Below are positions 10,501 to 11,091 of a stretch of 32,560 nucleotides of DNA, piece by piece. Each line of letters begins with the position of its first letter. Positions within the stretch are counted from its first letter, which is position 1. The position numbers were made by a program, and so were the translations under genes. Source of the DNA: Prevotellaceae bacterium (GTDB lineage Bacteria > Bacteroidota > Bacteroidia > Bacteroidales > UBA932); the NCBI GenBank assembly GCA_031279695.1, contig JAITIA010000075.1, positions 1-32,560 of the forward strand. The letters run 5' to 3'. The notes beneath the pieces were generated by a model, which was not told the origin of the DNA, ran no database searches, and saw only the letters and a program-made list of their open reading frames with translations.

Positions 10501-10835
10501 ATTTCCTGGGCGGTTTCGCTCATGACTACGTCGAGATTTGTTCTGTTATTGACGGCTACCTCCTGAGTGGCAAAACCGACAAACGAGAACACCAGTACCG
10601 AATTTCCAGACGGTACGGATATCGAATAACTTCCTGACACGCCGCTGACAACGCCCGCAGTAGTACCTTTTACCGTAATACTGACGTTGGGCAATGGTGC
10701 GCCGGAGGTTTCTGTTACCGTTCCAGTAACGGTAACGCCCTGTGCAAACGCCGATAAGGCGAATATACACATTCCACAGGCGGATAAATACATTTTCCGC
10801 ACTGTTCTCAAATTAAAAAAACTTTTCTTACTCAT
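7548..10835 (-). CDS. SusC/RagA-family TonB-linked outer-membrane transporter
   Basis: This is the channel partner of the downstream SusD protein, importing captured nutrients through the outer membrane with TonB energy. From the ATG at 10833-10835 it has 1095 residues: a signal peptide ending near FAQG (about residue 32), a carboxypeptidase-regulatory-like beta domain (about 33-110: TVTGTVTETSGAPLPNVSI, VSGSYSISVPSG), a TonB-box-like DEVIVVAYG, a plug domain with IQIRGIGT and LYVVDGVPYDG, then a long beta-barrel ending in the terminal aromatic GIQISF. The frame remains open far upstream of this ATG (a GTG at 10980-10982 and beyond, back to the CT tract). I chose 10835 because it begins directly at a normal signal peptide. 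That upstream openness is discussed under findings. Confidence 0.95.
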   Translation of the reverse strand: MSKKSFFNLRTVRKMYLSACGMCIFALSAFAQGVTVTGTVTETSGAPLPNVSITVKGTTAGVVSGVSGSYSISVPSGNSVLVFSFVGFATQEVAVNNRTNLDVVMSETAQEMDEVIVVAYGTAKKSTFTGAAAVVKSEQIQKISSVNAVESLQGMTAGVNITNNEGSPGRDSRIQIRGIGTMRDAAASNPLYVVDGVPYDGKLNSISTSDIESLTILKDAAASALYGSRAANGVVVITTKRGKSGAPVVNFKASWGTSDNAVKNPTKADPYQTMLYIWRANYNDGLYLHNMSVADASNYASSLGISQSVAARTNSQGQTVYVSPFKSVPLNQYVLHDGNGNPHVNPNLEMVWEPSDWDFYGAVYSRKLRQDYSFDVSGATNDGKTSYFFSASHLNDNGYGIAQYYKRYGFRANVTSKIKDWLTMGGSLAYSYGRQAGSGGNRMLVFSNSLNSPWLRNADNTDWEYSLKTGSRMKDYGTNVGEFFGIHSLDGMGGQGDYWNNPEDYSFSNDEDGMMTAHYSAEITLPFDVKYKTNINYDDIGRNHYGYGSAVHEWNQVAPYGITVRTDGGSANRRNNKVASLTWNNLLTWDKSFGDHNINLLAGHEFYSRTETEAATSGAGIMEIGRYEVSNTTKNWSGSSFRDRYALLSFFGQAQYNYQNKYYLSGSVRRDGSSRFHPDQRWGNFFSVGASWRISQEAFMQDIDWLNNLALRASYGATGNDNVGTLYAYQSYYEPYNMYGEPGLRKSSNAANDLHWEENRQINVAIDFTITNRFTGTIEYYRRNSEGLLAEKDLPYSFNAGASKINTNLGDILNTGFEFGLGVKVLQNRDFTWNINANFTTLHNEILKLPGGAYTFDIYRTTAKRTVGRSVMEHFLPKNAGVNPENGRLRYWVQDGNGNWSTTEEWSNVSLARDGQFVGSSIPKGYGSITNSFAWKGFDFSFMFYGSYGSVIYDYQLLENYSIRAGVSPVPSIVDGNVWMKPGDNTKFPRWSMENKTIAGQNTNTDLFIVNNSFLRLRNLTLGYSLPKALLQKVGISNLRLYVTGDNLLTFSPTVKYHVDPESGLRGNTYNGNGDNDSGIQGARRVYMGGIQISF

Positions 10836-10842
10836 AGTTGAT

Positions 10843-11091
10843 CTATTTATTATTAAAAATTGCCGAATGAGTTTTCGACAATATCTGCCCGAATATTGGA
10901 ACAAAACCAATACCGGTATTTCTAATTTCTTTTGAAAATCTGGATATTGGACACAAAAAAACCGCTGTATCAAAAATGACACAACGGTATGTATAATATC
11001 CGAAAACAGCGTAACTGTCTGATCTATTCTCTCTCTCTCTCTCTCTCTCTCTCTCTCTCTGGTTCGTTAGTTGCAAACATAGTGCCAGCAT
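10843..11091 (-). CDS. Possible leader ORF running through the dinucleotide tract upstream of susC
   Basis: An 82-codon frame starts at ATG 11091-11089, with GGA a few bases upstream and an in-frame stop just before it. It reads an Arg-Glu repeat through the (GA)16 tract and stops with TAG at 10845-10843, seven nucleotides before the susC ATG. It also covers the terminator-like hairpin at 10961-10988. The sequence looks like no known protein (low-complexity RE repeat, then a Cys/Phe-rich tail). A role as a regulatory upstream frame is more likely than a functional protein. Only the position, the frame relation to susC and the tract support it. Confidence 0.25.
   Translation of the reverse strand: MLALCLQLTNQRERERERERENRSDSYAVFGYYTYRCVIFDTAVFLCPISRFSKEIRNTGIGFVPIFGQILSKTHSAIFNNK
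10955..10988 (-). terminator. Terminator-like hairpin (attenuator candidate) in the susC leader
   Basis: On the minus strand a 12-bp stem (10988-10977 with 10972-10961, two G-U pairs, loop of four U) is followed by six U residues (10960-10955). It points toward susC and ends about 120 nt before its ATG, with no gene between. The nearest promoter-like sequences lie upstream of it, so it would act as a leader attenuator unless an unrecognised promoter follows it. Confidence 0.6.
11029..11060. repeat. (CT)16 simple sequence repeat in the susC leader
   Basis: Thirty-two bases of uninterrupted CT on the plus strand, which is GA on the susC-coding strand. Perfect dinucleotide tracts of this length are prone to replication slippage. 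It lies downstream of both candidate susC promoters, so it should be in the transcript, about 195 nt before the susC ATG. Confidence 0.97.

Follow-up and report, generated by a model that had tools for sequence, protein, structure and literature searches.

What could a long, uninterrupted GA repeat be doing upstream of a transporter gene? The repeat in question lies in a stretch of 32,560 nucleotides from a Prevotellaceae bacterium (contig JAITIA010000075.1, hereafter the window), where it precedes a susC gene on the minus strand. The original prediction held that the repeat sits in a leader ORF before susC, that its length decides the frame in which a ribosome leaves it, and that three distinct outcomes are possible. 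The first features that bear on this question are the following.

5850..7523, minus strand: susD partner of susC, probably in the same operon (Pfam SusD_RagB and SusD-like_3)
7548..10835, minus strand: susC, encoding a TonB-dependent SusC-type transporter, the putative controlled gene (Pfam Plug and CarbopepD_reg_2)
11028..11060, minus strand: GA tract, 33 nt
11072..11087, minus strand: sigma-54-like -24/-12 box, TGGCAC-N5-TTGCA, with the consensus and the correct spacing (pattern match)

TRF (11028-11060, period 2, 16.5 copies, 100% match) and frame analysis confirmed that the tract is real and has three distinct exit outcomes. It reads AGAG...A on the minus strand and is positioned within the leader ORF. 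The tract, the leader ORF, a terminator, a promoter and the exit frames are all present as sequence features, and they are conserved. The locus is probably a repeat-gated, phase-variable, translation-coupled attenuator placed before susC. More than 100 loci show conservation that strongly supports the core of the original prediction, namely the gating of a leader ORF by the length of the tract; the start codon and the roles assigned to the frames proved wrong.

The tract belongs to a large family. The genome that contains the window (a 2.9 Mb assembly, 92% complete) carries about 30 GA tracts of at least 12 nt, more than expected by chance, and almost all of them lie in one shared context. Eleven SusC-type genes of this genome stand directly 3' of such tracts, and among the other targets are an outer-membrane barrel, a SusE-like lipoprotein and Ig-like surface proteins; when the set was widened, SusC-like genes accounted for 60 of the 133 that lie downstream. 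The pattern of box plus tract was matched in 10 of 13 genomes of the genus. In the named genome collection, at least 115 stretches match it, nearly all of them from Bacteroidales MAGs with Tannerella, Prevotellaceae, Dysgonamonadaceae or Bacteroidales in their titles, most of which we take, from their isolate codes, to be of termite-gut origin. A search of Rfam gave no match at E<=1, and the papers searched described neither repeats of this kind nor this switch in termite Bacteroidales.

All tract lengths were taken from MAG assemblies. The ends of many contigs fall in or close to GA tracts (L020, L026, L031, L032, L036 and L040), so that counts of these loci from short-read assemblies are probably too low. 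The window holds a second repeat, an AT-rich 21-bp tandem array of 12.8 copies, at 22859-23126.

The leader ORF and its predicted promoter

Upstream of the tract, two further features are needed.

11245..11274, minus strand: predicted housekeeping (sigma-ABfr type) promoter P1, TTTG-N18-TACTTTTG (pattern match in the window)
11024..11152, minus strand: conserved leader ORF in its present frame, 42 aa, MNKLQTYFGVFLGFVTAWITDAGTMFATNEP(ER)n, with the stop TAG at 11026-11024

The leader had originally been started at ATG 11091. The frame arithmetic given for that codon is right, and the ORF from 11091 does cross the tract to the TAG at 10845-10843. However, this ATG overlaps the -24 part of the sigma-54-like box, and the start of its frame is not conserved in the paralogs. 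We replaced it with the conserved start, ATG 11152, which lies in another frame and is matched by ATG or GTG in 13 of 14 paralogs of the window element (ATG in 12, GTG in 1, ATT in 1).

From this position the frame into the tract is open in all 14 paralogs, with no stop observed against 5.0 expected when alignment columns were shuffled (P=0.0005). In other genomes, 90% of 125 elements keep the leader frame free of stops over 60 nt or more, as compared to 10% and 16% for the other two frames, and 86% have an ATG in it. Counted by sequence cluster, it is open in 43 of 52 independent clusters, versus 6 and 9 for the other frames. The predicted leader peptides share the (ER)n end and otherwise differ, and peptide-level conservation was looked for but not found, there being no excess of synonymous changes; it thus seems that translation is selected, rather than a particular peptide. 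The leader ORF is therefore conserved and open into the tract, and its translation is predicted.

Of 100 elements, 78 have a predicted promoter of the form TTG-N15-22-TAnnTTTG, following the Bacteroidetes housekeeping consensus (PMC7366714), 5' of the leader ATG, most often at a distance of 30-50 nt; the reverse-strand control gave 4 of 100. If P1 is used, as we infer, the leader ORF from ATG 11152 would be the first gene on its transcript, and ribosomes translating it would run on into the GA tract, where no frame contains a stop. Given that the repeat unit is 2 nt and that the tract contains no stops, each unit gained or lost by replication slippage would change the frame of exit.

In this model, such slippage would occur in living populations. 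Two near-identical paralogous elements of the same genome carry tracts of 38 and 70 nt. At two loci of sister genome G039 (L334 and L336), (AC)n replaces (GA)n after the box, and the leader ORF is still open through the repeat, while one tract-less locus in another sister genome also has no leader ORF; together these loci fit a role for the unit size and not for the GA sequence. At a further locus (L355), the stretch upstream of a susC homolog in sister genome G105 contains (ACAGA)n, an array of pentanucleotides that may represent a related switch built on a different unit size.

Long repeats can cause polymerase slippage or ribosomal frameshifting. The frame might accordingly be chosen anew on each transcript by either process, giving graded expression from unchanged DNA, and this would select the same frame architecture. 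We regard it as very unlikely, since near-identical copies differ strongly in tract length, as slippage of the DNA would give, and both GA and AC repeats occur; dinucleotide repeats are, moreover, poor substrates for polymerase slippage.

Exit frames, terminator and the downstream gene

Downstream of the tract, the window contains the following features.

11010..11023, minus strand: conserved post-tract motif ATCAGACAGTTACG (family consensus ATCARnnAGTTACG)
10954..10988, minus strand: intrinsic terminator, a 12-bp hairpin (10988-10961) and a T run (-17.8 kcal/mol, z=-7.0)
10843..11027, minus strand: read-through exit frame, from the tract end to the TAG at 10845-10843, 7 nt before susC (predicted ON)

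The tract has three exits in the window: one reaches the TAG at 11026-11024, the second the TAG at 10845-10843, and the third is open throughout susC. The present state had been assigned to the frame that runs to the TAG at 10845. From ATG 11152, the assembled tract instead exits into the immediate stop at 11026-11024, the short frame, which is predicted to be OFF. One more GA, or two fewer, would switch the locus to the coupled frame.

In the OFF state, the ribosome would halt right after the tract, the terminator would form and susC would be off. In the ON state, the ribosome would pass the terminator hairpin and stop 7 nt before the susC ATG, so that this frame should both block termination and deliver ribosomes to susC. 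The hairpin, mentioned only in passing in the original prediction, thus becomes central, as one frame is kept open through it.

Across the loci, the tract is followed by the motif ATCARnnAGTTACG, usually with a nearby stop codon in one frame, and then by the terminator. Terminator-like hairpins were found at 71 of 119 loci, as compared to 12-16 in shuffles; at about 40% of the loci no terminator was detected, and these may rely on coupling alone. Of 52 loci, 48 have one or more exit frames open from the tract end to the end of the hairpin, and none has all three open. The corresponding controls gave 25 (antisense), 18 (an equal stretch downstream) and about 24 (dinucleotide shuffles; z=8.3, a score inflated because the loci are partly related, a relatedness that the antisense and downstream controls share). 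In an independent set of loci, an exit frame is open through the terminator in 11 of 11. The longest exit frame reaches at least 100 nt in 94% of 143 loci, versus 41% in both shuffled and antisense sequences.

The end of the frame is likewise placed with respect to the gene. The distance between the stop of an exit frame and the ATG of the next gene is at most 25 nt in 48 of 114 loci, as compared to 5.9 in shuffles (maximum 12 in 200), and the exact ATGA overlap that is typical of translational coupling occurs in 13 of these 114 loci, versus 1.1 in shuffles. The assembled frames look unbiased, 29 stopping before the terminator and 16 passing it. The same geometry is seen at the closest SusC homolog (55% identity, from another species): a leader ORF and the post-tract motif are present, the tract measures 19 nt, the exits lie at 0, +7 and +218, and the gene probably starts at +213. 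In cells, attenuation and coupling would follow from this geometry, and the state of a locus would be predictable from its sequence, the exit frame giving on or off.

The third exit had suggested another outcome, in which phase variation yields an N-terminally extended SusC whose signal peptide is buried. The susC frame is indeed open back to the tract in the window, and one sister locus (L365) appears fused in its assembled state. This openness is, however, special to the present locus: none of the other ten susC tract loci of the same genome is open to the tract, and the frame that is conserved is the coupled, non-fused one. The fusion outcome was rejected on the basis of these paralogs; the fusion frame is probably accidental, and it is extremely improbable that extended SusC is what the switch produces.

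The post-tract motif (window 11010-11023; L254-L317) is conserved as nucleotides whatever the frame, and the frame model gives no account of it. Inspection by eye of a long-range pairing between an upstream GTAAC and the post-tract GTTAC revealed no convincing covariation.

The sigma-54-like box

The box lies inside the leader ORF, usually directly adjoining the repeat, at more than 100 loci. In the window it is accompanied by one further feature.

11093..11111, minus strand: inverted repeat TGTAA-N9-TTACA beside the box, common to the paralogs

At other loci, abutting inverted repeats of differing sequence (AAAGCCC..GGGCTTT, AAAGTTGAT..ATCAACTTT and others) lie just upstream of the box, as a candidate operator or RNA hairpin.

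On the first reading of the locus, the tract was taken for the initially transcribed region of a sigma-54 promoter. The tract begins at -11, right after an exact TGGCACG-N4-TTGC, in 120 of 144 elements, which were partly selected by this very box. Strict -24/-12 matches number 16 in the genome, with none for the reversed-pattern control, and repeat-free, promoter-like copies of the box exist. The genome also contains rpoN (at C85) and just two strong sigma-54 activator genes, one of them in the window at 4485-5702, downstream of susD and adjoining an lptE-like gene. A sigma-54 promoter, however, predicts neither the leader ORF, nor the upstream promoter, nor the exit frames. Copies of the element that lack the box, among them that of the closest SusC homolog, retain the switch, and sister genome G020 has a -12 element with TTGT in place of TTGC. 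Because the leader frames of the paralogs are open and box-less copies exist, the sigma-54 promoter was ruled out as the core of the element, and it is very unlikely that the tract is to be understood as its initially transcribed region.

The box may nevertheless be a second promoter, added to the proposed translation-coupled attenuator. One possibility, which we put forward tentatively, is a two-input switch, in which the box would be a working second promoter, or a polymerase binding site abutting the repeat, such that regulated sigma-54 polymerase and the heritable phase of the repeat jointly set the expression of most surface transporters. Polymerase that opens the DNA beside the tract might also affect the instability of the repeat.

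Relation to known switches

Most of what is known of phase variation in Bacteroidales concerns the inversion of DNA. The evidence presented here points to a separate, repeat-based system in uncultured members of this order, where it would control SusC-type transporters and other envelope proteins at dozens of loci in each genome. The invertible promoters of Bacteroides likewise place surface structures under phase control, but they flip DNA by recombination, whereas here the length of a repeat would set the reading frame. In meningococcal nadA, a repeat outside the target gene also alters expression; that repeat changes the spacing of promoter elements (PMC2791445), whereas the present one lies in a predicted translated leader and would act through the frame. 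As in trp-type attenuators, leader translation would decide whether the terminator forms, although no amino-acid sensing is seen here and the decision would be set by repeat length.

The closest precedent comes from Streptococcus gallolyticus. There, a leader ORF contains GCAGA repeats, and these determine whether a terminator is disrupted by ribosomes; this was shown for pil1 and is also reported for pil3 (Danne et al. 2014, PMC3894217). Both systems have a tandem repeat within a leader ORF, with a unit that is not a multiple of three and with surface genes downstream that are switched, the latter being predicted here from sequence alone; in both, the short frame ends before the terminator and longer frames reach or pass it. 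In contrast to the GCAGA repeats of two loci in a member of the Firmicutes, the present units are GA or AC, in Bacteroidales, at dozens of loci per genome. The conserved read-through frame that ends at the gene start and would provide coupling, the SusC and other envelope targets and the frequent embedded sigma-54-like box also set the present family apart from pil1 and pil3. By this comparison, the proposed mechanism matches the pilus precedent; the novelty appears to lie in the phylum and the genome-wide scale, in a repeat unit of two nucleotides, in the coupling geometry, and in the targets and the embedded box. If this is true, the mechanism would be a general strategy, and not one confined to the two pilus loci of a single Streptococcus at which it has so far been described.
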